From a virus: a stretch of DNA of 27,190 nt. The notes beneath the pieces were generated by a model, which searched no databases, was not told where the DNA came from, and saw only the letters and a program-made list of their open reading frames with translations. Positions 654 to 27,117 of the stretch are shown here, one piece after another (within the stretch, counting starts at the first letter, position 1; each line of letters starts with the position of its first letter). The translations under genes and the position numbers were made by a program. The DNA lies in the IMG/VR virus record IMGVR_UViG_3300048771_000030, positions 1-27,190 of that record. One strand, given 5' to 3'.

Positions 654-1109
654 TTAATTTTGTAGCCACGTCTTATCGTGTAATATACTCCATACATTTG
701 CTTGAGTAACGTCGAACCGCTTAGCGATTGCACGTTGAGACAATCCGGTATCAGATAATCGTCGTATCTCAGTTACTTGCACCCAAGTCAGCTTGCTAAA
801 TTGACATGCTTCCCCGTTTTCAATGCACCACCGCCCTTTATTTACCGAATCAAATGCATTATCGCTTTTAGTTCCTAAGAACAAATGCTCGGGATTCACA
901 CACGCCGGATTGTCGCACGTATGACAAACGAGCATATCATTAGGAATCTTACCAACCGTCAATTCATACGCCGTTCTGTGTGCGCTTTGTAACCGTCCAC
1001 CACCCCAAATTCTGCCGTAACCTTTGCGAGTATTGCCAGTCCACAACCAACATGAACCCCTATGTCCTGTCACTTCGACCTTAGACCAAAATCGTTCTTC
1101 TAAAGACAT
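654..1109 (-). CDS. HNH endonuclease with C-terminal helix-turn-helix (free-standing homing-type)
   Basis: The product has 151 residues. The HNH_3-type core is clear: AHRTAYEL around residue 44, then VCHTCDNPACVNPEHLFLGT (61-80) with Cys62, Cys65, Cys70 and His63/His75 for metal and catalysis, followed by KSDNAFDSVNKGR. Residues 103-149 form a small helix-turn-helix (EIRRLSDTGLSQRAIAKRF) like the DNA-binding tail of phage homing nucleases. GGAG stands 6 bases before the ATG. The gene is visibly more AT-rich than its neighbours and sits between two complete genes, as expected for a mobile, self-spreading nuclease that cuts DNA lacking the insertion. A role in the virion is unlikely. Confidence 0.88.
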   Translation of the reverse strand: MSLEERFWSKVEVTGHRGSCWLWTGNTRKGYGRIWGGGRLQSAHRTAYELTVGKIPNDMLVCHTCDNPACVNPEHLFLGTKSDNAFDSVNKGRWCIENGEACQFSKLTWVQVTEIRRLSDTGLSQRAIAKRFDVTQANVWSILHDKTWLQN

Positions 1110-2841: not shown

Positions 2842-5043
2842 TTAAGTGCCTCCTGTCGGCGGTGCTTTTTTATGGTCGCGAAGTACGACGCTGATCCCGG
2901 CAGGCATCGCCGTCGGAACCGGAGTTATAGGAACGAGCGTTAGGTCTTGCGGTGACGGCGGAGTTGTTATCGGCCCCCCGGGTGCGCCGCCCGTCCCGGT
3001 TGGGATAATCCCACCTGATTGCGCTGCCGGTTCGCTCGCGTCGATCGAATCCTTGCCGCCGAGGTTCTCCCAAGCATACCACACTGAGCCGTTGCCGTAT
3101 GTGTGATAGACCTGTGCGTCCGTTCCGGTGACAAAGACATGATAGTTTGTCCCGTCGGAACACGCGCCCGGACCGGTTCCTGTTGCGAGCTGTCCACCTA
3201 ACTCGAGCCATGCTGCGTCCCAAGCGCCGTCATTCCACTCGAGCATGTAGAGATGGCCGTTTGATCCCTGTGCAAAGACGGCGAGTTGCGTGCTTGACTG
3301 TGCGGCAGCTGCCGCCGATGCCGTCGTTTGGAATCCTCCGGCCGTGAGATCCTCCCATGTCGATGTCCAAACGCCGCCCGAGTAGGACTTATGGTAGACG
3401 GCCCCGTTTGTCCCCGTGACAAATACGTCGAATAGATTGGCTCCGCGTGAACACGCTGCCGGGCCGGTATTTGCGAGCATCCCTCCACCGAGGCTTATCC
3501 AATCGCCCCAAACGCTGCCATTCCATAGCTTATACCAACACGCGCCATCGCTGCCGCGTGCAAGCACCATGACATGATTTAATTGATCCGATACGGCACA
3601 TACTGACGACGTGCTGATTGCGCCGATGCTTGTCCATATCCACCCGCTCGCGTTGTTGGCATAATATACCGTGTTGTTGTAGCCAGTGACAAACGCATCC
3701 ATCCGACCCGCGCCCCATGATGCAACGCCAACTCCGGCCCCGGAGTATGCCAAACCGCCGATGCCCCTCCAAACGCCCCAAACGCCCTTTTCTTGTTGTT
3801 TGAAATAGATCTTGCTATCGGTTCCGCGTATAAAGACGGCGAGTTCGTTGGCGTCAGGAACGCAGGCCGCCGGAGTTGAACCTTCCCATCCTGCCGAGGT
3901 GAGGCTCACAATACCGCCCCAAGTTATAACGATGTCGTGTCCCCAATTGCCCGAGGCTCCTTTTGCGTTATAGTGATACACGCCGGTCTTTTTGGGACTT
4001 GGAATTGTGGCGCTGAAATTGCCCTTAGCATTCGGCTTGACCGTCCCGATTGTTGTGAGGTTCCCCGCCGGATCTTTTTGCACAATCGATATTGTGGTTG
4101 CGTCCGGTTTGTTTGCGATCCATCCTCCGGCTTGTGTGACCCACCCTTGCGCTCCGCTGATACTGACGGAATCGTTGACGTTGACTGTTTTCGAGTAGAG
4201 CGACGTTGTTGGTGCGCCCGTTACTCCACACCATATATGTTTACATGGACACTTTACGACCGCTGCGACGGCTGCGTTTGGAGTCGCAGGCACGGCGCTC
4301 CCTGTCCAAAGTCCGACGTCATCCGCCCAGTTGCCGCCGCCTGCGAGATCGAGAACGGTGTTGTCCTCTCTCCACGAATAGATATACGCCCCGCACGGGA
4401 ACCCGCCGCAATTTGATGCGTCGTTGCATCCCGGGCCTGTACAGTTCCCAATAACATAAGCGCCCGAAGTCGGCCCGTCGGAGGACACGGCGATCTGCAT
4501 GTAGTAGTTAGTATTCAACTTTAAGCTCGCGTTGCTAAATCCCTGATACAATGCCCCCTCGTTGCCCGGAGAGTCGGGCTGTATCTTGACAGGTCGGTTC
4601 GCACCAACACCGAGGTAGAACTCAACATCCAAATAGCTCGCGCCTTGTATTTCAACGGTCAAAAAGTAGTAGCCAAGTTGAGTCAAGGTGCTTCCGTCCC
4701 AAGAACACCCCTCATGAATATAGCCATAAAATTGATCGTCAGCGGCCGACCAAAGCTTGCCATCGTTACCAACGAGCATACCGTCCACGACACCGTTGAC
4801 CGGCCACCAACGGGCGATATTTAATCCAATTTGCCATGTGTGCTGATATGGATTGCTTATGCCGCTCGGAACGACTATCCCATCCTTTGCCCCGGTCATC
4901 GGCCCCCAAATAGGATGACCCTTTGAGTTCGTGCCGTATTGATTGCGAACGGCTTGTCCATCATACGAACCGGCAGCCGCCGCGCCATAGTTCTTTATCG
5001 TTGCCGAGTTTTGATTAAACAGGTAGTGAAGATACTGAGTCAT
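2842..5043 (-). CDS. Multidomain tail fibre: LamG-like + Ig-like + PLL/DUF346 beta-propeller lectin
   Basis: The product has 733 residues. Residues 1-240 form a concanavalin/LamG-like domain clearly related to the N-terminus of the 643-residue protein at 20095-22026. Residues 270-375 look Ig-like. Residues 378-663 hold six sequence repeats of about 45-50 residues with the PLL/DUF346 signature (DVFVTGTNGAVYHKSYSGGVW, then W-x-x-L-G-G), as in the PLL-type fucose/glycan-binding propeller lectins. Residues 664-733 are a Pro/Gly/Thr-rich tail ending LRDHKKAPPTGGT. Cysteines cluster in CPCKHIWC and in a C-rich loop near 201-217. The start overlaps the previous stop as ATGA with GAGG upstream. It most likely binds host surface glycans. 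Confidence 0.85.
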   Translation of the reverse strand: MTQYLHYLFNQNSATIKNYGAAAAGSYDGQAVRNQYGTNSKGHPIWGPMTGAKDGIVVPSGISNPYQHTWQIGLNIARWWPVNGVVDGMLVGNDGKLWSAADDQFYGYIHEGCSWDGSTLTQLGYYFLTVEIQGASYLDVEFYLGVGANRPVKIQPDSPGNEGALYQGFSNASLKLNTNYYMQIAVSSDGPTSGAYVIGNCTGPGCNDASNCGGFPCGAYIYSWREDNTVLDLAGGGNWADDVGLWTGSAVPATPNAAVAAVVKCPCKHIWCGVTGAPTTSLYSKTVNVNDSVSISGAQGWVTQAGGWIANKPDATTISIVQKDPAGNLTTIGTVKPNAKGNFSATIPSPKKTGVYHYNAKGASGNWGHDIVITWGGIVSLTSAGWEGSTPAACVPDANELAVFIRGTDSKIYFKQQEKGVWGVWRGIGGLAYSGAGVGVASWGAGRMDAFVTGYNNTVYYANNASGWIWTSIGAISTSSVCAVSDQLNHVMVLARGSDGACWYKLWNGSVWGDWISLGGGMLANTGPAACSRGANLFDVFVTGTNGAVYHKSYSGGVWTSTWEDLTAGGFQTTASAAAAAQSSTQLAVFAQGSNGHLYMLEWNDGAWDAAWLELGGQLATGTGPGACSDGTNYHVFVTGTDAQVYHTYGNGSVWYAWENLGGKDSIDASEPAAQSGGIIPTGTGGAPGGPITTPPSPQDLTLVPITPVPTAMPAGISVVLRDHKKAPPTGGT

Positions 5044-5771
5044 GTGCCTCTCATCCCATATCTGACGCCGTAATGGTCAATAAGTCCCCGGAAGGTTATA
5101 CCGAAATCGTTTTGCACAAGTGAGCAAATATCGTATCCAACTCCGCAGTAATAGAGGACGTTATCGCACGGAACGCCCTGCGATCTTGCCGTGTCGATTA
5201 GATTGATGTACCACGCGAGGCCGAGGTTCATGCACGACGTCATGTTAATAAGAATCCCGACTTCGTTCGCTCCCGCGTTATATGCATTTATCATTTGGTT
5301 AATCGTCGAGGCCGGTGTCGGATCACAGCCGTTGACACACGTTTGGATATAGTCAACGTGCTTCCCGTCTATCGGATGGCTCCAAGGTGCGGCGTACGCA
5401 TTGATCTGACCGTTGCCAACGCCGTCGTAGTCGTCTCCGCCTATTCCGGCATAGTTACAAACCCACATATAGTTATTCAGCACGCGAGTTATGTCGCCGC
5501 TTAATCCTGCGCCTGCGATCAGATCCCATCCCAAGTTTTTAGCCGCAGCGATCACGCCGCCAAACTGATCGCCCGGTGTTAAGGCGCTGTTGCCTTCCGT
5601 GTTAAAAGGATTCCACGTTGCGGTCGTGATCCCTGCGTTGTGGATAAACGAGGGATCGGGGATTGTCGATGTGTCATACGTGACGACGCCCGCTTCATCA
5701 ACTCCGTGGCTCGCAAGCCATCCTATGTCGCTGATCGTCCCGCCCATGCAGATTATACGAAGTTCTGACAT
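5040..5771 (-). CDS. Unrecognised 243-residue tail-tip protein, possible alpha/beta-barrel enzyme
   Basis: I do not recognise a family. The sequence alternates hydrophobic strands and helices in a way that suggests an alpha/beta (TIM-like) fold: LRIICMGG (4-11), LGWDLIAGAG (80-89), VDYIQTCVNG (139-148), EVGILINMTSC (170-180), DNVLYYCGVGYDICSL (203-218). A Gly/Asp loop (GIGGDDYDGVGNG, 109-121) and acidic residues near strand ends could form an active site. Eight cysteines are present. ATG at 5771 is preferred because GAGG lies 7 bases upstream; an in-frame GTG at 5780 overlaps that site. It lies between the tail-tip platform protein and the fibres, where envelope-degrading enzymes are often encoded, so a cell-wall or glycan hydrolase is a reasonable but unproven guess. 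Confidence 0.7.
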   Translation of the reverse strand: MSELRIICMGGTISDIGWLASHGVDEAGVVTYDTSTIPDPSFIHNAGITTATWNPFNTEGNSALTPGDQFGGVIAAAKNLGWDLIAGAGLSGDITRVLNNYMWVCNYAGIGGDDYDGVGNGQINAYAAPWSHPIDGKHVDYIQTCVNGCDPTPASTINQMINAYNAGANEVGILINMTSCMNLGLAWYINLIDTARSQGVPCDNVLYYCGVGYDICSLVQNDFGITFRGLIDHYGVRYGMRGT

Positions 5772-5776
5772 TACTT

Positions 5777-7270
5777 TCACCTCGCGTTAAGCATAAGCTG
5801 TCGGATCAAATCGCCTTGCACTCCGATCTGTTGCATGACGCGGGTTTGTTGTCTCTTGCTAAATGCCAAGGCCGCCGATCCTGATGCGCTGCCGCTTCCG
5901 GCGGGAACTGAGTAATTGAGATTCGTGACGACCTGATTAATCGGTTCGTCTCCGATCATAACGCAAACAGTGTCGCCGACATAGAAGTCTCGCGGGAAGC
6001 GGATCTGATCGGTCTCTTGTATCGTGAGCGTGAGCTGTGCATTATACGCCTCTGATAAAAGAGCGATCTGATTCGTCGCTGCCATGTTCGTGTTGATCTC
6101 CGCCGGAGTGTCGCTTGCCTGTCCTGTGGTTGCGCTCTCCCATCCTTCAAACCGGCCGTATTGTTTAATTGAGATCGGGTCGGCCGAGGGGAGCATGATC
6201 TTATCGACCCCTGCATTCGGCCCGACGCCGATCACCATGTTCGCTGTCGGAAGCCCAATGGTGTATTCATATTCTGCGAGCGTGCCGGAGTCGGTCGAGA
6301 ATATCACATCATTGGTAAGGTCGGCTCCGGTGTAAACTTCAAACTCGAGCTTCGTGCCGTTCTGTGTAACGTAGAAATAGACGCCGCCTGCGATCGCTGT
6401 GTCTTGTATCTGAGACAGTAAGTTCTCGCCCCGCGAGTTGACGACGACGTTGGCTCCCCGGCCGAAGTTCGTCTCGATGACAAGGTTTGGGATTGCCCGG
6501 GGGCCGAACTGATCCACGCATGCGCCCGCCGCGGCGTTGTAATTAACAAGCTCTTTCATGACGGTTTCGGCCGGGCCGCTCCGTGTATCGAATCCCAAGT
6601 ATGCGGGATTGTCGACGATTGCGCCTTTCGTGTTGGTTTGCGTCACCAATGTTCCGGCGGGATGCGCCCTGCCGAAGTTTGTTGCCGCTATAAGTGTGTT
6701 GGTCGTGTAGTCAATCGCGGCGATCACGAATGACGTTCCGGCGATTGTGCCTGCGGTTGCGACCGTCGCCGTCGCCCCGGGCAAGAATCCGCTCGCATCG
6801 GTGACAATAAGGTTCGGTTGTGCGACGACTGCGGTCGTGTCGATCGTCGTCGTCAGTCCTTCGGCGACGACCTTGTCAGTGAACCGATAACAGCCGTCAG
6901 TGTCGAGGATCATTCCCGAAACTCGGGGATAGCACACTCTCGCGGCGAGATAGGCATTATCACAGCCTCCGAATATCGACGTCGTTCGCATCCCTGTGAT
7001 ATAGTGCGTCTTTGTGAGCATCACCGGCCCGGTCATTATCTGCACGTTGTCACGCAGGAACATAATGCCGTCGCCAAGGCTAAACGTGTGGCCGTTGGAG
7101 TTGAGCGCCATGTAGTCCTCAGTGTGCATATCAATTTGCCAGCTCGAGACGTCGTTGAGTGTGATTGTACAGGTGAAGTCGACAAGGTTACGGATCTCGC
7201 CGTTGTCCTCGAGGTTTATATCCCGCACGACTACTTGACAGTCAGCGTCGACGAGGTTGGAGATTCCCAT
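5777..7270 (-). CDS. Tail-tip/baseplate protein, siphovirus ReqiPepy6 gp37-like
   Basis: The product has 497 residues. The N-terminal half has the tail-hub-like strand pattern VVVRDINLEDNGEIRNLVDF, then SWQIDMHTEDYMAL and LRDNVQIMTGPVMLT. The region DTRSGPAETVMKELVNYN (229-246), followed by LLSQIQDTAIAGGVYFYV and LEFEVYTGADLTNDVIFS, matches the gp37-like family that caps the tail after the distal tail protein. Residues about 150-212 look like an inserted small beta domain (FLPGATATVATAGTIAGTSF) that many relatives probably lack. The C-terminus is helical and carries SKRQQTRVMQQIGVQGDLI. The gene starts in a TAATG overlap with the distal tail gene. The protein is expected to close the tail tube and hold the fibres encoded next. 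Confidence 0.8.
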   Translation of the reverse strand: MGISNLVDADCQVVVRDINLEDNGEIRNLVDFTCTITLNDVSSWQIDMHTEDYMALNSNGHTFSLGDGIMFLRDNVQIMTGPVMLTKTHYITGMRTTSIFGGCDNAYLAARVCYPRVSGMILDTDGCYRFTDKVVAEGLTTTIDTTAVVAQPNLIVTDASGFLPGATATVATAGTIAGTSFVIAAIDYTTNTLIAATNFGRAHPAGTLVTQTNTKGAIVDNPAYLGFDTRSGPAETVMKELVNYNAAAGACVDQFGPRAIPNLVIETNFGRGANVVVNSRGENLLSQIQDTAIAGGVYFYVTQNGTKLEFEVYTGADLTNDVIFSTDSGTLAEYEYTIGLPTANMVIGVGPNAGVDKIMLPSADPISIKQYGRFEGWESATTGQASDTPAEINTNMAATNQIALLSEAYNAQLTLTIQETDQIRFPRDFYVGDTVCVMIGDEPINQVVTNLNYSVPAGSGSASGSAALAFSKRQQTRVMQQIGVQGDLIRQLMLNAR

Positions 7271-16148: not shown

Positions 16149-16787
16149 TCACACTCCGGTCAAATCGCCGACGCTGATCGCATAGTCATCCACTAAGTCG
16201 ACTGCCTGCGTTGGCAACGTATAATCTAAGTTCTCTCGAGAGGCATACCATTGAGCGACGGTTATGCGGATTGCGTTTCTGATCTGAGCCGGAACATCTT
16301 TCGCGTTGTCGCCATATCCCGCGATAAATGTGATCTGATACCAACCGTGCAAGTAATACGGCCACCATGCGCCGTAATTCAAACGAATAAGCGCCGGTTC
16401 TAAGCCCGTATTAATGTTGTAGGTGCTCGGGATAACTGAATGTAAGACGCCCTCTTGATCGACGACCGATATGTCGAGCACTTGTTGGCACGGCGGTCGC
16501 CATATTGGGATCACCGGCGGGAACCCCTCATACGCCCATGTCGTGAGTCCTGCTTGCATCAACGGTTTAATCGTCGGCGTCATAATCATCTTGAGTGTTT
16601 GTGTGATGAATGCCCGGCCCGTGTAGTCACCGATCGCCTCTGTCGCTGCATAGATAAGATCCTCAACGAACACGATGTCCTCGATCATATCGGGATTCGT
16701 GCCGTCGATGTGGAGGAAGTTGAGCATCTCCGCCCGGGCGACGGGGAACTTCTCGGGCGGCGTGATCGTTTGGATATTACATCTCAT
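16149..16787 (-). CDS. Head-tail connector/adaptor protein (HK97 gp6 / phiE125 gp8-like)
   Basis: The product has 212 residues. It opens with CNIQTITPPEKFPVARAEML, then EDIVFVEDLIYAATEAIGDY with TGRAFITQTLKMI, the helical signature of the gp6-like adaptor ring that binds under the portal. It is followed by the phiE125-gp8-type middle (IPIWRPPCQQVLDISVVDQE, YNINTGLEPALIRLNYG) and GWYQITFIAGYGDNAKDVPA, QIRNAIRITVAQWYASREN. The G-x-P-x-x-I-R-x-A-I-x-x-x-V-A-x-W-Y motif is diagnostic. It begins in an ATGA overlap with the BppU-like gene upstream, so neck expression is coupled to the adhesin island. Confidence 0.9.
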   Translation of the reverse strand: MRCNIQTITPPEKFPVARAEMLNFLHIDGTNPDMIEDIVFVEDLIYAATEAIGDYTGRAFITQTLKMIMTPTIKPLMQAGLTTWAYEGFPPVIPIWRPPCQQVLDISVVDQEGVLHSVIPSTYNINTGLEPALIRLNYGAWWPYYLHGWYQITFIAGYGDNAKDVPAQIRNAIRITVAQWYASRENLDYTLPTQAVDLVDDYAISVGDLTGV

Positions 16788-17860
16788 GCTGTCTCCTCGA
16801 GAATCCGGTTCGGCTCAACGGTGAGGTAGCCGGTCGCCTCGATGCTCGTCGTCGTGACGCCCGCGACGGTGATCGTCATCTCCAATATATACTCATAGAT
16901 GAACGCCGGAATTGTCATCTCCGATGCAGAGAATAAGACCGCGATCTGCCCTTTTGATGGCGTCCCGAATGCGAGACCCGACCCGAGTGTTTTTTGCAGC
17001 ACGTCACCTGTTACATTGTGGTACGCCGTAAAGTTGAACGTCGCGGTGCTTATGTCGCGGGCGACTCCGTTGTCATCAGTTATGACGAAAAGAAGCTGGT
17101 CATCCGCGTCCTGATAAACCGTCTTGTTCGGGGACAGTGTGCCGCCCCACGTTAAAGGGTTCGGCGTATATATGAAACTACTTAGCACTACTTCGACCTG
17201 CGATAGTCCCGGGGGAAAATCCCCGCCGTTGAGTGTATTGCTTAGCATCAGCCGCACGAACATGCCATCCGTGTCTTTTGGTGACGTGCATGTAGTATCA
17301 TTATAGTATGTCTTCTCAACATGGCCGGAGAGTCCGCCGTCTGCCTCCCATTTGACATACGAAGAGTCCCATGTCAGCGTGTGCGTCACGTTCGGCCCGG
17401 CAACATAAGGTCTCATTATTCTCCCGACCAAAGATGCGGGGTCGGTCGGCGAATTCTCCAGCCATGACATAGGTTCGGACGTAGGATCGCCCCATTGACA
17501 TGGTTCGATACCAATCTCGCCACGGAACGGTTTTACATTTTCATCACAAACGTACATAGCAAACGCTAGATTTGGCATCCCCGGGGCAAATCCGGCGGCC
17601 GTTCCGAGTATCATCGCCGATATGTCCGTGGTCATTGTGCATTGAAACGTGCCATAGTGAACGGGTGCGGCGGATATTAGATCGACCCATGGCCAATACG
17701 GGCCGCCGGTAGAACTTCCCGTCGGGTCAAGTAATATAAACAGGTGAAGGGAGTCCGTTGTTGTATCGATATATGCTCCGCTGATCTGCTCCGTGTGCAT
17801 CACCCAATCCATGCCGTTCCACGTAAACGGCACACTATACTCTACATTCTCAATTGCCAC
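16784..17860 (-). CDS. Structural protein with C-terminal BppU-like Ig domain
   Basis: The product has 358 residues from GTG at 17860, two bases after the upstream stop; a GTG at 17887 would add nine residues but overlaps the previous gene and has no ribosome site. Residues 1-235 are strand-rich and of unknown fold, with four cysteines (QCTMTT, MYVCDENV, EPCQWGD, TTCTSPKD) and many tryptophans, possibly a carbohydrate-binding sandwich. Residues about 240-350 resemble the N-terminal Ig-like domain of BppU-type baseplate proteins: YQDADDQLLFVITDDNGVAR, DISTATFNFTAYHNVTGD, GQIAVLFSASEMTIPA and YILEMTITVAGVTTTSIEAT. This domain recurs in the 143-residue gene at 19667-20098. It is probably a surface-exposed virion protein. 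Confidence 0.72.
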   Translation of the reverse strand: MAIENVEYSVPFTWNGMDWVMHTEQISGAYIDTTTDSLHLFILLDPTGSSTGGPYWPWVDLISAAPVHYGTFQCTMTTDISAMILGTAAGFAPGMPNLAFAMYVCDENVKPFRGEIGIEPCQWGDPTSEPMSWLENSPTDPASLVGRIMRPYVAGPNVTHTLTWDSSYVKWEADGGLSGHVEKTYYNDTTCTSPKDTDGMFVRLMLSNTLNGGDFPPGLSQVEVVLSSFIYTPNPLTWGGTLSPNKTVYQDADDQLLFVITDDNGVARDISTATFNFTAYHNVTGDVLQKTLGSGLAFGTPSKGQIAVLFSASEMTIPAFIYEYILEMTITVAGVTTTSIEATGYLTVEPNRILEETA

Positions 17861-17862
17861 GG

Positions 17863-18609
17863 TTAGAACACCTGCCCGAATCTCCACCTGTCTGCGAGGA
17901 AGTTAGTTAACAACGTCGCGGTGCTCAGTATTGCGTTGTAGATGCGTGCGAAGTAAACGGTTATACTTGGGCCACCACTACCCAGCCAGTCATTGTTTCC
18001 GATTATGAAATCATACGATGCGTCGGTGTGGTAGGTTGAGGCCGAGCCGGTGTTTGCCATTGTAGGTGTTTGTGGTACGCCGTTTATATGGACAACTGGT
18101 GCTGTTCCGAACACACCAAGCGCCTGCGTGAACTGTATGTCATAAAAGTTGCCTGCGGTAAAGCTGCCGTTCGGCATTATCCAGTTGATGTGTGATGTGC
18201 CGTTATTGTCAAAGCGTATAAGGCTGAGTGTATTTGTTGGGTATAGCGCGAGACACCAGCCTGCCGAACTTGCACCGCCTTTCGAGAGTAAGTACGTGTA
18301 GTCAGAGCGCGAGGTGAGGTATACTCCTATCTCGACCGTGATGTTTGCGATGTTCTCGACTGGAGCGGTCTGGCCTGGTATTCGTATGCCATCGGTGGCT
18401 CCGTCGTTGGTGAACGATGATGCGCCGGTCGATTGGAGCACGTAACGGTTCGCGTGGGGTATGGCGTCGTATGTAGGATAGTTCGGCGTTTCGTTCGGAA
18501 TTACTGTTCCTGCCGACGGCCAATCCTGCAAATTGACTAAGCAGTTTGCGAGGTTAACGTGCGCGTTTTGAAACGGGTAGGCTGTCTGGCCAAAACTGTG
18601 AGCGCGCAT
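17863..18609 (-). CDS. LamG/concanavalin A-like beta-sandwich protein
   Basis: The product has 248 residues. After about 80 residues of lead-in, the LamG-type jelly roll is clear: NITVEIGVYLTSRSDYTYLL, SKGGASSAGWCLALYPTNTL, GNFYDIQFTQALG, APVVHINGVPQTPTM and YDFIIGNNDW, then ITVYFARIYNAILSTATLL, the typical last strand plus helix of laminin-G-like phage domains. It ends in DRWRFGQVF. Such domains usually bind glycans or other virion proteins. It is one of three LamG-like proteins in this window. GAGG from the end of the upstream gene lies 9 bases before the ATG. Confidence 0.82.
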   Translation of the reverse strand: MRAHSFGQTAYPFQNAHVNLANCLVNLQDWPSAGTVIPNETPNYPTYDAIPHANRYVLQSTGASSFTNDGATDGIRIPGQTAPVENIANITVEIGVYLTSRSDYTYLLSKGGASSAGWCLALYPTNTLSLIRFDNNGTSHINWIMPNGSFTAGNFYDIQFTQALGVFGTAPVVHINGVPQTPTMANTGSASTYHTDASYDFIIGNNDWLGSGGPSITVYFARIYNAILSTATLLTNFLADRWRFGQVF

Positions 18610-18612
18610 CGT

Positions 18613-19113
18613 TTACGCCCTCGCAAGCCAGTTAACTACAGGAGTTGTATCCGCCGTTGAACTCATCACAAAGATTTTGTTGACGTTCGATGCGGGTATG
18701 GTGAAATCTCTCCCCGGAGCGAGCTGCATCACGCACGTTGAGGCCGACGAACCGAACAACACTATAACGGTGTTTGTGGTGGGCGCTTGTATCGTGACTT
18801 CTGCACAAGCTTGAGTTGACGTCAACGCCACGCCTGCGCTTGCGCCGATGCTATAGGTGTGTTGTGTTGTTGGAGCCGTCGCGCCACTTGCTAACCCTGA
18901 CGTCGTTGTGCCGTCGCCCCACGTAATCGACCACGTTCCTGAGTTCGTCGTAGCGCTAAATGCATACGTGGCTTCCCCTAAGTCGCTTACTACCAGCTCA
19001 ATATTACCTGCCGCACAATCCGTAATAGTCGGCCAACACGTCGGCCATGTCCAGCCCCCACCTGCCGGAGCAACGGTAGGACATATACGCGCCCCAAATC
19101 CCTGTGTTTTCAT
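18613..19113 (-). CDS. PKD-like domain plus duplicated C-terminal domain (virion surface protein)
   Basis: The product has 166 residues. It starts directly after the stop of the upstream gene (TAA then ATG). Residues 40-95 look like a PKD/Ig repeat: TYAFSATTNSGTWSITWGDG with the W-G-D-G-T turn and the closing HTYSIGASAG. Residues 98-166 are a close copy of the C-terminus of the previous gene, sharing EVTIQAP, VLFGxSxSTC, GRDxTI, SNVNKIF, DTTPxVNWxARA. Four cysteines lie in the first 110 residues. It probably forms a small beta-sandwich fibre or decoration. Its last codons contain the GAGG that serves the next gene. Confidence 0.75.
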   Translation of the reverse strand: MKTQGFGARICPTVAPAGGGWTWPTCWPTITDCAAGNIELVVSDLGEATYAFSATTNSGTWSITWGDGTTTSGLASGATAPTTQHTYSIGASAGVALTSTQACAEVTIQAPTTNTVIVLFGSSASTCVMQLAPGRDFTIPASNVNKIFVMSSTADTTPVVNWLARA

Positions 19114-19653
19114 TTATGCCCTCGCAATCCAATTCACCATTGGAGTCGTGTCTGAAGTTGAACTCTTAATGAAAATCTTGTTAACGTTTGAAACGGCAAT
19201 CGTATAATCGCGTCCCGCCACTAATTCCATATAGCATGTTGATGGCGAGGTGCCAAAAAGAACCGTGACTGTGTTTGCCACCGGTGCTTGGATTGTTACC
19301 TCTGAACATGTTTGTGTCGTCATCGCCGCACCGTTTGTTGTAGCTGACCCGTATGCGGCTACGGAACCAATTTGACCACTGTAAACCGTTGTTGACCCTA
19401 CTTGAGCAACCGCTATGAAATGAGCAAGCTGGTCTACCGTGGCTTCAAGTACTGCGTCCGTTACGCTACCGTTAAAGCCCGGAATTGCGACTACTGCGGC
19501 TGTGATTGTATTTGCAAGAGCGACGAGGCCCGGATCAGTTGACAAGAGTGACACCGCGCCGCCGCTGCCGCCGCCGCTGCCGCCCGCTACGATATTAACT
19601 GGCACTCCTTGAGTGTTTGGATCATACCCTGCGTCTCCCGGATTCCCTGTCAT
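19114..19653 (-). CDS. Small virion-surface protein with glycine hinge and the same C-terminal domain
   Basis: The product has 179 residues from ATG 19653, with GGAGG 9 bases upstream. It begins MTGNPGDAGYDPNTQGVPVN, followed by a glycine-serine linker (GGSGGGSGG, 23-31), a helical segment (DPGLVALANTITAAVVAIPG and VDQLAHFIAVAQVG), and the C-terminal domain shared with the next gene (SEVTIQAPVANTVTVLFGTS ... VNWIARA). The short N-terminal peptide plus Gly linker looks like a virion-anchoring tail joined to an outer domain. The shared 69-residue domain may be a receptor- or sugar-binding sandwich. A longer frame upstream lacks support. Confidence 0.75.
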   Translation of the reverse strand: MTGNPGDAGYDPNTQGVPVNIVAGGSGGGSGGAVSLLSTDPGLVALANTITAAVVAIPGFNGSVTDAVLEATVDQLAHFIAVAQVGSTTVYSGQIGSVAAYGSATTNGAAMTTQTCSEVTIQAPVANTVTVLFGTSPSTCYMELVAGRDYTIAVSNVNKIFIKSSTSDTTPMVNWIARA

Positions 19654-19666
19654 CTTTTTATTCCTC

Positions 19667-20098
19667 CTATGTTTGTGACGGCATGATAAACAACCGCCCT
19701 CGTATCCCAATCCATGACTGACTTGTATACGTCAGTCGTCCTTCGTGGTCATAGATGATCGGCACGCCGATCGTCTTAGTGTCCGGCAACGGCGTGTCAG
19801 TCGGTAAGAATGATATGCTGAACGTGTTGATTATCCCGTTGACCGGGTCGGCGAGAGTGATGTTCCCGGCATCGGTGCTTTTAGGTATCAGTATGTCCCC
19901 GTTGAACGTGGCATTCCACGTAATATCATAATCAGTGATGTCTCGGGGATCTCCGGCAGGTGTGAACAAATGGATGTTCACCGTCAGCGATGCCCGCTCA
20001 TCGATGTTAATATCCACGCCGGTCGGCGTTGCGGCCATCGGCGTTGTAATTGGTAAGCCGCCGCTGTCCACTTCCGTCACTTTATAGCCTATGCTCAT
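19667..20098 (-). CDS. BppU-like Ig-fold structural protein
   Basis: The product has 143 residues. The core DERASLTVNIHLFTPAGDPR with DITDYDITWNATFNGDILIP, then TDAGNITLADPVNGIINTF and SISFLPTDTPLPD, and the closing strand SWIGIRGRLFIM, follow the pattern of the Ig-like N-terminal domain of BppU-type baseplate proteins (polarised G/A-x-x-x-D-I/L-x-x-Y turn). The same domain ends the 358-residue protein at 16784-17860. It overlaps the 643-residue gene as ATGA, so the two are co-translated. It is likely a linker or base onto which the larger multidomain protein attaches (inference). Confidence 0.72.
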   Translation of the reverse strand: MSIGYKVTEVDSGGLPITTPMAATPTGVDINIDERASLTVNIHLFTPAGDPRDITDYDITWNATFNGDILIPKSTDAGNITLADPVNGIINTFSISFLPTDTPLPDTKTIGVPIIYDHEGRLTYTSQSWIGIRGRLFIMPSQT

Positions 20099-22026
20099 TC
20101 GGTTGCTACCTCCCCAACAATATCAATTGAATCGGTCACGATACCCGTGAGATCCTCACTGTCGATCACATACGTTGCGACATCGGCCTCATCTATGACC
20201 ACGACGTCAAAGTCGAGGACTTTATTATAGGCAATCACGCCGTAAGCGTCGCAAACTTCCGCCTCCATCGCCGGGACAACAGTTGTCGTCGCCGTCTCCG
20301 ATTGTTGCACGCTTGTGTAGTTCTCTGTCTCGACGACGCAATCGCCGACGACCTCAGTGTTGACGTGCGTGCTAAGTTGACTGACGATCAGCGGTCTCGC
20401 TGTGAACTCGTTGCCTGTCGCAACTGCCGGGAATACAAACTCATAGAGGTGCATGACATCGCAATATACGATGACAGTATCGATCTCCATTCCCACGACG
20501 GTCGTCGTGACGGTAAAACCGATCGTTATTGTCGGGTTTGCCCCCGCCGTTGCTTCCATTGCAGGCACGACCGCTGGCAATGCTATCCACGCGCCCGCAG
20601 TCCCGAGTGGCAAAGTTGCTATCGCCATATCGGGAGGAGAGATCGCATTCACTGTTTGACTAACACTCGCGCCTGTGATCGCAATTGCAGTCGGTGAACA
20701 TGAGCATGTAAGGTGTGTCGCATCGCCGTCATAACTGACCCCGTACCACGTCACGCCCGCGACCGCAGTGACATCAATCGTATATTCACCGCTCGGGTCA
20801 GTCGTTGCGGCGATCGCCCCACCTGACGGAGTCCACGGCCCGGACTGAGACGTTCCTGTCCATAATCTGATGCTTGCCGAGTCGAGGCCGACACCCATTC
20901 CGCTTAACACGCCGGAGAGTCCAAACAGTGAGCCGACCGCCGGAGTCGTGGTGCTCGCGGACATCGTGATACTCATCGGCATCTTCTGTCCACGACTCTT
21001 AAAGATCGTACTCGTTGAACTTCCGTGGCCGGTGTCACCGGGAAAGACAACATACTCGTCCTCGAGTGCGATGGCCGTTTGTTCGTACGAATAATTGCCG
21101 TTTGCGTCGGTCGTGCAATACCCAACCTCCGCATGCCATGTCTCCTCGTCGGTCGTGTACCAAACGTTGAGTGCTTTGCCTGCGAGTTTAACGCCTGCCG
21201 TTGTTTGGAGTGTGCCGGTGACTTCGTAGATCTGACCGAGGATTGGTGTCAGTGTGTTTGGAGTGGCCGAGATCGTTGTTGCGACCGAAGGATTCCATCG
21301 AACGGAATCCGCTGCGAAGTCCGAGAACGACGCCCAATTCTTAGCCTCGGCGCTGTACTCGCGGTACACAATCAAATCAAAGTTTATGTTGTAATTCGTG
21401 CATCCTGCGGAACAGTTGCCAATCGCTGCCTGATACCCGGAGTCGGTGTTATGCCACGATGAATCGGAGCAGTTCTTTGTCATTGCGACCGACGTGGCCG
21501 TTGGTGCGACAGGCGTGCCGCCCGATGGAGTCGCCCCAACCCAAATGCTCACGTTACTAGCGGCGCACGACTGCGGATTCGCGGGGATGTTTACCGAAAC
21601 TTGGATGTAGTAGGTCTTGCCCGCGGTGAGCGCCCGGTTCGATGACCAATAGACCGATGACCCGGCGGACGCGCCAGCACGGAGGAATAGGATATACCCG
21701 TTTTGGATATAGATCGAGTATGCGCCCCATGCCTTGTCGTAGATCTTGGAGATTGTTCCGTTGACACCTGCGCCATTATAGTAGAAGCCGATCTCCCAAG
21801 AGTGAACGAATGCGCCCGTGCCTGCGGTGTTGTAGTCGGTGCTCGCAACTACAATCGCGTCGCCGCCCGCTGAGAACGGCCCGTAATAAGGATAAGGCGC
21901 ACCGTTGGCGTTGGTCGCGTGCCAACCGGAGAAATTTGCTCCACCGTTGCCACTCGGGCCGCCGCTGCCATAGTTTGTTATGGTCTCCGAGTCCGCTGCG
22001 AACGTGTAGTAAATAGCAAGAGCCAC
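20095..22026 (-). CDS. Large adhesin-like virion protein: LamG-like + two Ig-like domains + unknown C-terminus
   Basis: The product has 643 residues from a GTG start with GGAG 9 bases upstream. Residues 1-240 are a LamG/concanavalin-like domain sharing ITNYG, GPFSAGGDAIVV and HSWEIG patterns with the fibre at 2842-5043. Residues 248-345 (TTISATPNTLTPILGQIYEV ... DTGHGSSTSTIF) and 350-452 (AVGSLFGLSGVLSGMGVGLD ... DGDATHLTCSCS) are bacterial-Ig/CnaB-like repeats. Residues 455-643 are strand-rich with two VVPAME motifs (487-492, 583-588) and an acidic end. It is likely a capsid- or neck-attached adhesin because it is encoded among the head genes, far from the tail tip. No catalytic motif is seen. 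Confidence 0.82.
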   Translation of the reverse strand: MALAIYYTFAADSETITNYGSGGPSGNGGANFSGWHATNANGAPYPYYGPFSAGGDAIVVASTDYNTAGTGAFVHSWEIGFYYNGAGVNGTISKIYDKAWGAYSIYIQNGYILFLRAGASAGSSVYWSSNRALTAGKTYYIQVSVNIPANPQSCAASNVSIWVGATPSGGTPVAPTATSVAMTKNCSDSSWHNTDSGYQAAIGNCSAGCTNYNINFDLIVYREYSAEAKNWASFSDFAADSVRWNPSVATTISATPNTLTPILGQIYEVTGTLQTTAGVKLAGKALNVWYTTDEETWHAEVGYCTTDANGNYSYEQTAIALEDEYVVFPGDTGHGSSTSTIFKSRGQKMPMSITMSASTTTPAVGSLFGLSGVLSGMGVGLDSASIRLWTGTSQSGPWTPSGGAIAATTDPSGEYTIDVTAVAGVTWYGVSYDGDATHLTCSCSPTAIAITGASVSQTVNAISPPDMAIATLPLGTAGAWIALPAVVPAMEATAGANPTITIGFTVTTTVVGMEIDTVIVYCDVMHLYEFVFPAVATGNEFTARPLIVSQLSTHVNTEVVGDCVVETENYTSVQQSETATTTVVPAMEAEVCDAYGVIAYNKVLDFDVVVIDEADVATYVIDSEDLTGIVTDSIDIVGEVATE

Positions 22027-22041
22027 GATTCGTATCTCCGA

Positions 22042-22518
22042 TTAAACTACTTTCAGTCGACAGATTCCATTCGCATCGAATACAACCGTCAGAGTTCCGG
22101 CAGTGACGTCTTTCTCAACTCCGAAGTCAAGATAACATATCAGCGGCTTGTTTGTCGCCGTGAAGTCGTAGACCACGCCGCCCTCAGTCACAAACGTCGA
22201 TGATGTCCACGGGGCCGGTGCTGTCCCGTTGTATTTGAGATAGCGTAACCCGTCATCAGAATCCGTTATCATCCCGAGTGTTGGCGTTGCGACCGCTTGT
22301 CCGCCTGCCGTGTAACCTGCGCCCGCGCCGTTGGTCGTCTCCATTGCCGCCGCGATCGTGGTATAACTGGTCTCAGTCTCGTTACTCGGGACATACGTCG
22401 GCGAGTTCGTTGATGATTTAGCGAGTGCGAGTTTGATCGTGTCCGTGAGCCAATTGATTCGCTCCGTCGGATGTCCGACCATTCTCAGCGGCCCGCCTTC
22501 ATACATAGTTCCAACCAT
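22042..22518 (-). CDS. Small phage structural protein, IKLAL...GTGYTAGG-type family
   Basis: The product has 158 residues from ATG 22518, with AAGGAG 8 bases upstream. The sequence WLTDTIKLALAKSS near the start, NGAGAGYTAGGQAV in the middle, and CYLDFGVEKDVTAGTLTVVF followed by DANGICRL at the end follow a pattern I know from small structural proteins of many tailed phages (IKVAL, GTGYTAGG, DFG...GT.TI.W...GI). That family is usually encoded near head or neck genes and has no described enzyme activity. It is a beta-rich virion component, perhaps a decoration or fibre base. It precedes the large adhesin gene by 15 bases. Confidence 0.72.
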   Translation of the reverse strand: MVGTMYEGGPLRMVGHPTERINWLTDTIKLALAKSSTNSPTYVPSNETETSYTTIAAAMETTNGAGAGYTAGGQAVATPTLGMITDSDDGLRYLKYNGTAPAPWTSSTFVTEGGVVYDFTATNKPLICYLDFGVEKDVTAGTLTVVFDANGICRLKVV

Positions 22519-22532
22519 GTTAATTTCTCCTT

Positions 22533-22811
22533 TTAGATGTCCGCCCTTGGGATCTTGCGAAGGTGTGCCGGACAACCGTTGTCAAATAGATCCTTGCGCT
22601 CCATTTGCCACTTCATCTTAAACCCGCACCACGATTGTACTCCTCGCGGCTGCGTTGTTTGACAACTTGAACGCTTGCACGTTGAGCAATTGTGGTACTC
22701 ATGCGGGAATGGGTGAGTATTGTTTTTAATGATGACCTTTGGGTCAAATACCTCATACTCATATCCAATGCCGCCGCGTTCTTGCGGTTTGATATACTGA
22801 GTCTCGGGCAT
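22533..22811 (-). CDS. Small Cys-rich, probably metal-binding protein
   Basis: The product has 92 residues. Five cysteines occur at 42, 45, 50, 62 and 80, with HNCSTCKRSSC as the core, nearby His37 and His40, and a C-terminal CPAHLRK. The C-x2-C-x4-C spacing suggests a zinc ribbon or an Fe-S site rather than disulphides, but no exact family is recognised. The N-terminus (MPETQYIKPQERGGIGYEYE) is polar. It begins in a TAATG overlap with the upstream 85-residue gene, with GGGGGA as a possible ribosome site. Its setting among small head-associated genes suggests a virion or assembly factor. Confidence 0.7.
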   Translation of the reverse strand: MPETQYIKPQERGGIGYEYEVFDPKVIIKNNTHPFPHEYHNCSTCKRSSCQTTQPRGVQSWCGFKMKWQMERKDLFDNGCPAHLRKIPRADI

Positions 22812-23068
22812 TATCCCCCGACGAGTGGCGTTCCGGTTGCGTCAGTCCATGCCGTGCCGTTATACCAAACTGGCTGATTAAGCGTCGTGTCGTAGACCTG
22901 TTGCCCTGTCGTCGGTGTGAGCGCCTTTCGCTGTGCCGTTGTTACTATCAACGGGAGAACGCCGACTATACTTGGATCTAACTTCGGGGCAGTTACCGCG
23001 CCGTCAAAGATCTGTTCCGTGTCGACGCAATTCGGCCCGAGTGTTGTTCGTGATGAAGTTCCGGGCAT
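22811..23068 (-). CDS. Short fibre-type structural protein with VYDTTLNQ...WYNGTAW motif
   Basis: The product has 85 residues. The second half, TPTTGQQVYDTTLNQPVWYN followed by GTAWTDATGTPLVGG, matches the short motif that ends many phage fibre and collar proteins (G-x-x-V-Y-x-x-T-x-N-x-x-x-x-Y-x-G-x-x-W). The first half, TEQIFDGAVTAPKLDPSI, resembles the repeated trimeric coiled linker in fibre shafts. The gene may be a short trimeric fibre or neck whisker. It follows the 79-residue gene by six bases, with only a weak ribosome site (AAGAAGTGATG). Confidence 0.72.
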   Translation of the reverse strand: MPGTSSRTTLGPNCVDTEQIFDGAVTAPKLDPSIVGVLPLIVTTAQRKALTPTTGQQVYDTTLNQPVWYNGTAWTDATGTPLVGG

Positions 23069-23074
23069 GACGCA

Positions 23075-23314
23075 TCACTTCTTTTTAACAGGTGAACGAA
23101 CCATTTTGTTTTTCTTTGGTGCGTCAACTGCCTTCATTGCCTTTACTTCCTCGACTTCCTCTTCTTTCATTGGATTAACTGCCTTGAGGTATTCTTTGGT
23201 TGCGTCGACCGCTGTGCCGCCTTTAATCAAGTTGCCCGCCATAACTTCGTCGTACCATTGATACGAGCCGCTTGTGTGACCGTTATATTCCTTTAGAAAT
23301 CTGACTAATTGCAT
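23075..23314 (-). CDS. Small head-module protein with Lys-rich tail
   Basis: The product has 79 residues. The N-terminus MQLVRFLKEYNGHTSGSYQW followed by DEVMAGNLIKGGTAV resembles a short domain common in phage head modules (V-x-FL-x-x-Y, A-x-x-LI-x-x-G-x-A). The C-terminal half is charged (NPMKEEEVEEVKAMK) and ends in a lysine-rich tail (APKKNKMVRSPVKKK) that could contact nucleic acid or an acidic partner. An AAGGAGG site lies 5 bases before the ATG, but it is buried in a perfect hairpin (23321-23338), so translation may be regulated. Function is unknown. Confidence 0.68.
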   Translation of the reverse strand: MQLVRFLKEYNGHTSGSYQWYDEVMAGNLIKGGTAVDATKEYLKAVNPMKEEEVEEVKAMKAVDAPKKNKMVRSPVKKK

Positions 23315-23355: not shown

Positions 23356-23883
23356 TTATGCTGACGTTGCCTCGGTTGTCGACGTAGGTGGTTCCTCTCG
23401 AGCGTTGAAGAACTCGAGCAAAGGTGTTCCGACCACTGCATCAACTGACGCGGCGACGAACGTTGCCGAGATCTTTATCTTGAGGTTCGCGTTGACCTTG
23501 ACATTGTCAAGATCCCACATTGCTTCAACAACACCCGGCCCTGTCGTGGCGACGTATCCATGTGCCGCATCCGTGCCGACAGGCGTGATCGTTGGAGCGT
23601 TCGCCGTGCCTGCAACATACGAAGGCAACGAGACACTCTGATATGCGTTCGATGTCCCGCTGTCGGACTGCAACTCGAGTTGAACTGCAACCGCGCCGCC
23701 GCCTCCCGTTTTAATGAACGGGAATATCGCCCTGACTGCGTTAAACGCCTTGTTGGTTCCGATTGCGTATGCCGTCGGTGTTGAGGTGATCGTTGAACCG
23801 GCGCCGGACGCGGTGAGTGTCACCGGGCCGCTCTCGGGCTGCTTGATCCTCGCCTGTCCAATCATTCCACTTTTCCATGCCAT
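23356..23883 (-). CDS. Head-associated protein downstream of capsid gene (possible decoration protein)
   Basis: The product has 175 residues from ATG 23883, with GGAGG 7 bases upstream. It begins MAWKSGMIGQARIKQPESGP and is strand-rich, with VRAIFPFIKTGGGGAVAVQL, QSDSGTSNAYQSVSLPSYVA, MWDLDNVKVNANLKIKISAT and TPLLEFFNAREEPP as its main segments. There is no cysteine and no enzyme motif. I do not recognise the family. Its place 31 bases after the major capsid gene, its strong ribosome site and its beta-rich composition fit a capsid decoration or cement protein made in large amounts; this is inference. A short Thr/Ser/Glu tail closes it. Confidence 0.75.
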   Translation of the reverse strand: MAWKSGMIGQARIKQPESGPVTLTASGAGSTITSTPTAYAIGTNKAFNAVRAIFPFIKTGGGGAVAVQLELQSDSGTSNAYQSVSLPSYVAGTANAPTITPVGTDAAHGYVATTGPGVVEAMWDLDNVKVNANLKIKISATFVAASVDAVVGTPLLEFFNAREEPPTSTTEATSA

Positions 23884-23914
23884 GTTACTTCCTCCGTTTG
23901 ATAACGCCATTCGA

Positions 23915-25168
23915 TTAGACGTTGCCCCATGTCACGCCGGTTAATGCAGCGGCGGATGCGGGATGTCGCATTCCGAAGTCGTGCATTTGAATCGCACGAA
24001 TAACTGCCTCGTCTCTGCTGAATGGCGAGAGTAAGGTTCCGCTCATATCGTAAGCGGCCTCGGTCGAAGCGTCGATTCTCATCGTCATGGCATCGCCGAT
24101 AATCATCTCGGGGAACTCGGCAAGATAGATGTAGTTCGTTGTCGGTGCGTCCATGCTCAGTTGAGTCGTGGTTGCGATTGGGTGTCCCCAAAATGTGTTG
24201 TTCGCCTGTACTGTTGGGAACGCGAGCATGCCTGTTGCTTCCCTCACTTGTGCGAGCCAGTTCTTGTTTGACGGCCGCATTATCCAACCTCGCTTTGTGT
24301 TGGGTACGTTGGCGTTGTCGAGAACTGTCTCCATTCTCGCGGCGTCGGTTGTTGCCGTTACTGCCGATGGAGTTGCGGTCATTGCGATTGCATTTGCCGC
24401 AGTCATCTGATTCCGCATTCCGACAGGTGTGGCGAGTGCGCCGTTACCTTCGATGAATGCAAGATCTTCTCTCAATGCCATTTGTTTTACGATGTCGTTG
24501 CGAACCATTTGGTCAACGTTCGGTTGTGAGAAGTCAAGGAGATCAGTTGAGATCGCCGTGATTGCTCCGAGTTTGTGACCTTGTAGGTTAATCTGTCCGA
24601 CTTGTAGCTGCGAGTAGGTGATGTTCCCGCCTTCGCTGAGATACGCTGCCGTTGCGCCGCCGGTTTGCCGTGTGATGCTCAGTTGTCCGTTGACAAGAGG
24701 CATGATCGTGCATCCCATTGATCGCATGACCGTCGCGGCAAGCAAGAGTTCAATCACTTCGTCCGAGAGTATCTCGGGAACCATCATGCCGCCTGCGGTT
24801 GGAATGGCAACCTCGAGCGCCTTGGTGATCTTGGATTTGTCACCAAACTTCCGCTGCGCCCAAAAGTGAGCATCCCTGACGTTACCCTTGGCGTTCGCGT
24901 ATGCGATTATAAGTCCGCCAAGTGGATCGACCTTTTCAAACTTGTTTGCTTCCGCATACTGTTCCTCGCCTGCGAGTGCCGTGCGGATCGCAAGGTTCTG
25001 TCGGTCAATTGCCTCATGGGTTTGACCCTTGAGTTCGTCTTTTGTTTGTCCAGTTCGCTTCAAGAACATATCTTGAAGCTGTTGCCGTGTGTACTTCGTC
25101 TCTCGTTTGATCCCATCTTTGCCCATGAGATCGTTCAACTGAGAACGAGTCATTCGTATTTCGCCCAT
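23915..25168 (-). CDS. Major capsid protein (HK97 fold)
   Basis: The product has 417 residues from ATG 25168, with GGAGG 6 bases upstream; a longer frame extends into the previous gene and is rejected. Residues 1-110 are charged and helical (RETKYTRQQLQDMFLKRTGQ, DELKGQTHEAIDRQNLAIRT), like the delta/scaffold region of HK97-type capsids that the protease removes. The mature fold begins near AIPTAGGMMVPEILSDEVIE and continues with VMRSMGCTIMPLVNGQLSIT, GGATAAYLSEGGNITYSQLQ, ALREDLAFIEGNG, and AYDMSGTLLSPFSRDEAVIR with the final IQMHDFGMRHPASAAALTGV. These are classic HK97-family landmarks. It forms the icosahedral shell. Confidence 0.95.
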   Translation of the reverse strand: MGEIRMTRSQLNDLMGKDGIKRETKYTRQQLQDMFLKRTGQTKDELKGQTHEAIDRQNLAIRTALAGEEQYAEANKFEKVDPLGGLIIAYANAKGNVRDAHFWAQRKFGDKSKITKALEVAIPTAGGMMVPEILSDEVIELLLAATVMRSMGCTIMPLVNGQLSITRQTGGATAAYLSEGGNITYSQLQVGQINLQGHKLGAITAISTDLLDFSQPNVDQMVRNDIVKQMALREDLAFIEGNGALATPVGMRNQMTAANAIAMTATPSAVTATTDAARMETVLDNANVPNTKRGWIMRPSNKNWLAQVREATGMLAFPTVQANNTFWGHPIATTTQLSMDAPTTNYIYLAEFPEMIIGDAMTMRIDASTEAAYDMSGTLLSPFSRDEAVIRAIQMHDFGMRHPASAAALTGVTWGNV

Positions 25169-26721: not shown

Positions 26722-27117
26722 CTACTCAACACAACTCGATCGTGCCGCAAGCATCAGTGCGGCGAGTTGCCGTATGTTCGGGTTATAATGCCAGCACTCG
26801 GGATCGCAACCATGAGCAAACCTGTGGTGTTCAAAATGATGCAGCATTATGAAGTTCGCCAAGATGAAGTCATAGTCGTTCTGTTGTGCCGTTGTGAGTT
26901 TGTGGTACGGTAGAACATCGTGTGCCTCGAGTTGACACTGATCTCCGGTTGCGCCGTCCAACTTGGCATCAGGAACATTAAGCGAACCTTCCTTTGACCC
27001 GCACATCTCGCAAGTATCGTGTGCATTATGGAAGTCGGCTGCCGCCTGTGTCCACGCCACGGTTCTCGGTTGGCTACCTATCCCTTTGAACTGCTTGCGA
27101 CGTGATAAGAAACTCAT
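26722..27117 (-). CDS. HNH nuclease-like protein with His-substituted zinc knuckle
   Basis: The product has 131 residues. The first knuckle CEMCG (36-40) and the HNH core LEAHDVLPYHKL (63-74) with His66 are followed by NFIMLHHFEHHRFAHG (88-103). This aligns with the usual N-x-x-x-L-C-x-x-C-H-x-x-x-H, with both cysteines replaced by His94 and His97. Two further cysteines (104, 108) follow and might supply ligands. HNH proteins of this type in head modules often help DNA packaging in other phages. The gene starts in an ATGA overlap with a membrane-protein gene and ends eight bases before the protease gene. Confidence 0.75.
   Translation of the reverse strand: MSFLSRRKQFKGIGSQPRTVAWTQAAADFHNAHDTCEMCGSKEGSLNVPDAKLDGATGDQCQLEAHDVLPYHKLTTAQQNDYDFILANFIMLHHFEHHRFAHGCDPECWHYNPNIRQLAALMLAARSSCVE

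Follow-up and report, generated by a model that had tools for sequence, protein, structure and literature searches.

In long-tailed phages, the tail tip is where variation in receptor binding is usually looked for. Here we describe an island of fibre- and adhesin-like genes between the capsid and connector genes of an IMG/VR phage contig (IMGVR_UViG_3300048771_000030; 27,190 bases (b), the whole of which is called the window below), and a slot within this island at which cassettes are swapped, both within near-identical phages and with an unrelated phage. Head adhesion as such is not new, since there are precedents in the archaeal tailed virus HFTV1, RcGTA, phage 7-7-1 and Douge. The novelty is that a slot beside the capsid gene takes exchangeable cassettes and that one cassette is identical in unrelated phages.

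In the long-tailed Caulobacter phage phiCbK, the 2,799-amino-acid (aa) LamG/lectin protein gp76 is a published head-filament candidate with a proposed role in flagellum binding, and its gene lies directly beside that of gp75, a phrog_644 protein, downstream of the capsid genes (PMC3556154). The window has the same pairing in the same place, with a phrog_644 gene (34% identity to gp75) next to the gene of a 643-aa protein whose lectin domain is weakly indicated. phiCbK makes first contact via the head, as is proposed below for the window. The two differ in that phiCbK has one Gly-rich filament protein, itself a candidate assignment with no recognised BppU-like or Cys-rich partner, whereas the window has a multi-gene array whose largest protein is 643 aa. 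In the satellite phage MiniFlayer, whose particles have short fibres and attach to the neck of a helper virion, the four genes gp6-gp9 are regarded by the authors as a putative adsorption module; a phrog_644 protein (gp6, 37% identical to that of the window), a giant LamG protein and a small fibre protein are encoded between the major capsid protein (MCP) and the head-tail adaptor (PMC10690885). Position and phrog_644 agree with the island, but Pfam detected LamG in MiniFlayer only, gp9 gave no significant match to the BppU-like profile, and MiniFlayer is short-tailed.

The capsid turrets of HFTV1 carry a carbohydrate-binding and deacetylase protein, proposed as a first-contact device (PMC12494034). 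One cassette of the island (in phage L001, see below) likewise encodes a NodB polysaccharide deacetylase domain with metal-binding motifs, for which a PDB search gave no sequence match to the turret protein; unlike the island's phages, HFTV1 has one turret type and an archaeal host. RcGTA head spikes bind the capsule as a first reversible contact (PMC7296036), and the head-mounted capsid fibres of phage 7-7-1 make the first reversible binding, to the flagellum (PMC12796354). The island would resemble both in supplying head-mounted fibres for first binding; no homology to either was seen. In RcGTA, the gene numbers of base and fibre (Rcc01079-01080) are remote from that of the portal (Rcc01684). 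Hoc and pb10 are Ig-like capsid decorations, and the Douge capsid displays glycan-binding Ig domains (PMC7602432, PMC13033339). Glycan binding by head-displayed domains is what these would have in common with the island, whose 643-aa and BppU-like proteins found no Hoc/pb10-type homologue in PDB or Pfam and which, unlike them, has lectin, leucine-rich-repeat (LRR) and esterase tips in exchangeable cassettes.

Exchange of cassettes at a slot within the island

The exchange slot is the strongest feature of the locus, and it was invisible to the first-pass annotation, which had been made from a single sequence. Two phages, L001 and L012, are nearly identical to the window outside the slot (capsid protein 100%, DNA 99.98% over 8.4 kb); the slot is the single difference, and in them it holds 3.17 kb of other DNA (Table 1). 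This cassette encodes a BspA-type LRR protein (C-terminal part; LRR_5, E 4e-19), a second phrog_644 protein and a 493-aa polysaccharide-deacetylase protein (Polysacc_deac_1, E 2e-13) in which the FDDG and NHTWSH motifs are present and about 200 residues precede the enzyme domain. Each form keeps a remnant of the other: L001 retains 57 b of the 3' end of the LamG gene, and the 166-aa protein of the window retains a truncated PKD-like start of the LRR protein, 99% identical to a 458-aa protein of L001. Two histories would account for this: mutual replacement of the cassettes, or origin of both alleles by deletion from a longer array. The LRR form appears to be old in the lineage, because L021, another lineage member, has an LRR-type gene at the slot position.

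The same DNA recurs in an unrelated phage. A stretch of 985 b, spanning the LamG gene and the preceding domain, matches L043 with zero mismatches, and L043 has no other DNA similarity to the window. Its capsid protein belongs to phrog_1005 and its portal is Mu-like; the cassette sits just downstream of its capsid gene, among relatives of phrog_644 and phrog_1084. This marks a recent transfer between unrelated phages. L043's own relatives are 95% identical to it over the head genes and diverge where its island begins. Within the slot we also observed gene conversion: the 166-aa gene of L004 terminates in a copied version of the end of its neighbour, which has replaced its own and accounts for 40 of the 151 differences between L004 and the window. 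Since the piece differs among near-identical phages and recurs exactly in an unrelated one, these genes look like exchangeable surface-sticking parts. Elsewhere in L004, 96 of the 151 differences fall in the tape measure gene, nearly all at 9.1-12.0 kb, and most other genes outside the island do not differ from the window at all.

Every sequence compared here is a metagenome contig, and contigs L003 and L005, from different samples, both end at 17793. This is 126 b beyond the swap junction, where an assembly fork with k = 127 would break them off. We nevertheless consider it highly improbable that the cassette differences and the L043 identity are assembly chimeras. L002 shares the arrangement of the window, as does the slightly diverged L004; the alternative is found in both L001 and L012, which come from different samples, and the left junction is joined differently in each of the window, L001 and L043. 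A two-phage chimera fails for L043 because L043 has neither flank of the window phage. The shared end point of L003 and L005 suggests that both alleles coexist in those samples.

The capsid-connector interval in related phages

The window contains the structural genes of a long-tailed phage, every gene on the minus strand, in the order protease, scaffold-like protein, HK97-type capsid protein, island, connector, head closure, neck, terminator, tail tube, tape measure, Dit, Tal and tail-tip proteins. The island runs down to 16784 from the gene at 23075-23314 or that at 22811-23068, and the interval between the MCP (end 23915) and the connector (start 16787) comprises 7,127 b of fibre- or adhesin-like genes. 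The first-pass annotation had listed adhesin-like genes here at 16784-23068, and we confirmed both the inventory and the position; the phrog_644 gene was missing from its list.

We compared phages and prophages whose capsid proteins are related, mostly at 31-41% identity, and located their connectors by iterated profiles. Among 63 relatives the MCP-connector gap has a median of 327 b and is below 1 kb in 94%. The gap of 7.1 kb in the window, and of 7.6 kb in L020, a relative with 57% connector identity, is far beyond this range. Only two further gaps exceed 1.4 kb, both in Oxalobacteraceae prophages, and these hold a sialic-acid-type acetylesterase gene (SASA, E 3e-15; L083) and a LamG gene (E 6e-5, below the Pfam curated cut-off; L086), suggesting that a filled gap tends to hold carbohydrate-related genes. 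The arrangement had been called unusual, and for this capsid group it is, although head-borne glycan binding has precedents. The prophage scan returned distant relatives only (best 41%). Against 50,697 phage records the island DNA had no match and its large proteins had no convincing protein match.

Gene order is conserved within the lineage: L020 keeps the order of the island, with the Cys-rich, phrog_644, large adhesin and BppU-like set occurring twice. A BppU-like gene directly precedes the connector in all four lineage members (window, L019, L020 and L021). The window, L020 and L019 share the C-terminal motif RGxxFIMPSQT, with one I/V change. In L019 it immediately precedes the connector; in the window it ends the smaller BppU-like protein as RGRLFIMPSQT. 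BppU-like proteins with this end may be docking parts. L021 has an additional BppU-like gene between the connector and head closure (L021:1967-2629).

Table 1. Coordinates of the island, its exchanged segments and flanking genes in the window.
Feature	Position	Strand	Evidence or remark
Tail-tip adhesin	2842..5043	-	N-terminus homologous to 643-aa island protein, followed by a beta-propeller lectin of PLL type
Head-tail connector (adaptor), right border of island	16149..16787	-	phrog_442 E 9e-15
367-aa protein, C-terminal BppU-like domain, directly before connector	16784..17887	-	phrog_1084 E 5e-7, residues 254-349
248-aa LamG-like protein, exchanged gene	17863..18609	-	100% identical in L043; 25% to L137 839-aa protein, E 2e-9
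Exchanged cassette	17863..18847	.	985 b, zero mismatches, window vs unrelated phage L043
Swap interval	17919..18829	.	replaced by 3.17 kb in near-identical phages L001 and L012
166-aa chimera	18613..19113	-	truncated PKD-like N-terminus; C-terminal domain identical in L043 (unrelated phage)
179-aa protein, C-terminal domain ...EVTIQAP...WIARA	19114..19653	-	51% to L043 235-aa gene
BppU-like (phrog_1084) protein	19667..20098	-	phrog_1084 E 0.004; 50% and 37% to L020 proteins
643-aa adhesin: N-terminal LamG-like, two tandem Ig-like repeats, long C-terminal part	20095..22026	-	35% to L020 524-aa protein
phrog_644 fibre-associated protein	22042..22518	-	phrog_644 E 4e-12; start set by comparison with L020 homologue
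Cys-rich 92-aa protein	22533..22811	-	47% and 36% to two L020 genes (two copies in L020)
85-aa fibre-motif protein	22811..23068	-	phrog_20787 'virion structural' E 2e-11, and tail-fibre families
79-aa conserved gene	23075..23314	-	50% to L020 76-aa gene; phrog_34879 E 0.003
184-aa gene directly after MCP, lineage-conserved	23356..23910	-	46% to L020 176-aa gene; no family match
Major capsid protein, HK97 type	23915..25168	-	phrog_617 E 3e-50

Domains and duplications of the island proteins

The fibre-motif and Cys-rich proteins of the first-pass annotation were borne out by family matches and by an L020 counterpart, respectively (Table 1). The 85-aa protein joins a fibre-type C-terminus to a conserved N-terminus, LGPNxVDTEQIxDG, which is 61% identical to that of a 187-aa protein of L020 with a differing C-terminus. 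Other labels held in part. The two BppU-like proteins had no Pfam or NCBIfam match to BppU (the TP901-1-type baseplate protein) and matched phrog_1084 instead, which like phrog_644 is a family that accompanies fibres. The PKD label comes from a WGDGT...HTY motif recognised by eye, while the Ig-like tandem repeats of the 643-aa protein align well above chance (score 90 vs 56 for shuffled sequence); its 524-aa counterpart in L020 has a single Ig-like repeat. A LamG identity of the 248-aa and 643-aa proteins is weakly indicated by profile comparison, by the L137 relative of the 248-aa protein and by a Foldseek search with a low-confidence model of the 643-aa N-terminus, in which the top-ranking matches were of ConA/LamG type only. 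Structure prediction, which had been suggested as a check, gave two AlphaFold models too poor to be used alone (predicted local distance difference test scores of 36 for the phrog_644 protein and 38 for the 643-aa N-terminus).

Internal duplications had also been reported. They are visible at the protein level: the C-terminal domains of the neighbouring 179-aa and 166-aa proteins are 70% identical (score 264 vs a shuffle maximum of 61), and the 643-aa N-terminus is homologous to the window's own tail-tip protein (score 108 vs 57; hhalign probability 95%). In contrast, the repeats seen in the island DNA resemble pairs arising by chance, and direct alignment of the two BppU-like domains was no better than that of shuffled sequence.

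The phrog_644 family was found in 389 phage records with one tblastn query. In Gordonia phage Kampe (KU998254), a deacetylase-like minor tail gene (gp36, 37328-38314) lies two genes from the phrog_644 gene gp38 (38765-39169), an arrangement that echoes the phrog_644 and deacetylase pair of the L001 cassette.

Location of the adhesins on the virion

That the island is a multi-gene adhesin locus is well supported. Attachment of its products to the virion is likely, and we think that mounting on the head or neck is fairly probable; glycan binding would follow from the predicted folds. A head or neck location is plausible because the head-side position is retained in four lineage members (window, L019, L020 and L021), because there are capsid-side parallels in phiCbK, MiniFlayer and L043, and because the window has a separate tail-tip lectin of the Photorhabdus type (PLL; PDB 6rfz, E 4e-23). 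We accordingly favour, with some confidence, a head- or neck-mounted array of exchangeable glycan adhesins, separate from the basic head and neck machinery and serving first contact. The first-pass annotation had placed these proteins on the capsid or collar as head-borne, multi-gene adhesins; the multi-gene locus stands, while the head-borne part is argued from gene position and parallels and is unproven.

Several observations weigh against this placement. Head-side gene position may indicate position in the virion, but alone it is no proof, and mass spectrometry did not find gp76 of phiCbK in virions (PMC3556154). Sequence searches against Pfam, NCBIfam and the PDB failed to detect LamG in the 248-aa or 643-aa protein. 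The phrog_644 family profile matches the tail wing arm gp31 of mycobacteriophage Bxb1 (PDB 9d93, E 8e-6), a distant homologue that is part of a solved virion but on the tail. L137, a relative by its tape measure (35%) whose contig starts at its connector, encodes homologues of island proteins after the tape measure: a phrog_644-like gene, an N-terminus resembling L020_690, a giant that combines the LamG of the 643-aa protein with a PLL lectin, and a LamG protein akin to the 248-aa one. Together with the N-terminus shared by the 643-aa protein and the window's tail-tip lectin, these show that adhesin genes clearly move between head-side and tail loci. The L137 homologues, this shared N-terminus and the Bxb1 match also favour a conventional virion in which the island products are ordinary tail-tip or tail-shaft appendages whose genes were relocated to the head module, as does the position of phrog_644 genes after the tape measure or minor tail proteins in Gordonia, Rhodococcus and Mycobacterium siphophages. 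We nonetheless judge this less likely: a full tail-tip adhesin set is already at its usual place, the connector-adjacent position is held in at least four lineage members, the gap occupants of other prophages are also carbohydrate-related, and phrog_644 genes follow capsid genes in phiCbK, MiniFlayer, F116, L043 and further phages. Being found in both contexts, phrog_644 goes along with fibres at whichever site these are mounted. Variable content in a fixed slot, including enzymes (deacetylase, acetylesterase), would also fit morons, that is, cargo acting in the lysogen or infected cell through surface modification or exclusion. This is improbable for genes that lie tightly packed on one strand inside a structural operon, match fibre and virion-structural profiles, include a relative of a solved virion component and encode no strongly hydrophobic segment pointing to membrane insertion.

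If the array is borne on the head or neck, the conserved small proteins (fibre-motif N-terminus, Cys-rich, phrog_644 and BppU-like) would be its mounting and docking parts, most likely at a capsid vertex, the collar or the neck. The variable tips, namely the 643-aa LamG/Ig and 248-aa LamG proteins here and the BspA-type LRR and polysaccharide deacetylase proteins in sister phages, would bind or modify glycans. By analogy with HFTV1, RcGTA, 7-7-1 and Douge, we propose a reversible first contact between the array and host surface polysaccharide, some alleles perhaps deacetylating the glycan, after which the separate tail-tip PLL lectin may engage the final receptor, a binding order that we infer. 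Recombination at short homologies would exchange tips at the slot, among phages of the species as well as with unrelated ones. More tentatively, and with less confidence than in head or neck mounting itself, the island can be pictured as a rack of head or neck glycan adhesins and carbohydrate esterases, in which the docking set next to the connector is conserved and the tip cassettes are swapped within a species, gene-converted and traded intact across unrelated capsids.

A head- or neck-borne array would amount to a second adhesion system beside the capsid gene, one that evolves separately and is traded horizontally. Predicting host range from tail fibres only would then miss the island adhesins, and specialisation on host surfaces could arise at the head without a matching change at the tail tip. 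The phrog_644/lectin pairing also offers a sequence-level handle on head-filament genes such as that of phiCbK, making their identity testable.

Other genes of the window and its relatives

For the MCP we preferred the ATG at 25168, since the listed TTG at 25231 would overlap the preceding gene. The product of the 184-aa gene directly after it is a candidate capsid decoration protein. Between Tal and the PLL lectin, a 246-aa protein (5040-5780) had no family match and is enzyme-like by eye. Behind the tail-tip genes, the N-terminus of a 537-aa protein (1226-2839) matches the head or virion structural families phrog_9534 (E 2e-12) and phrog_1220, which may be another hint of traffic between head and tail. 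In L043, a single 683-aa gene (L043:1039-3090) encodes a prohead protease (PF14550, E 1e-15) fused with a uracil-DNA-glycosylase-like domain (PF03167, E 3e-7). Finally, genes that resemble HNH endonucleases by eye lie near either end of the structural block of the window (654-1109 and 26722-27117), and the third-position GC of the left one is unusually low (0.39 vs about 0.6).

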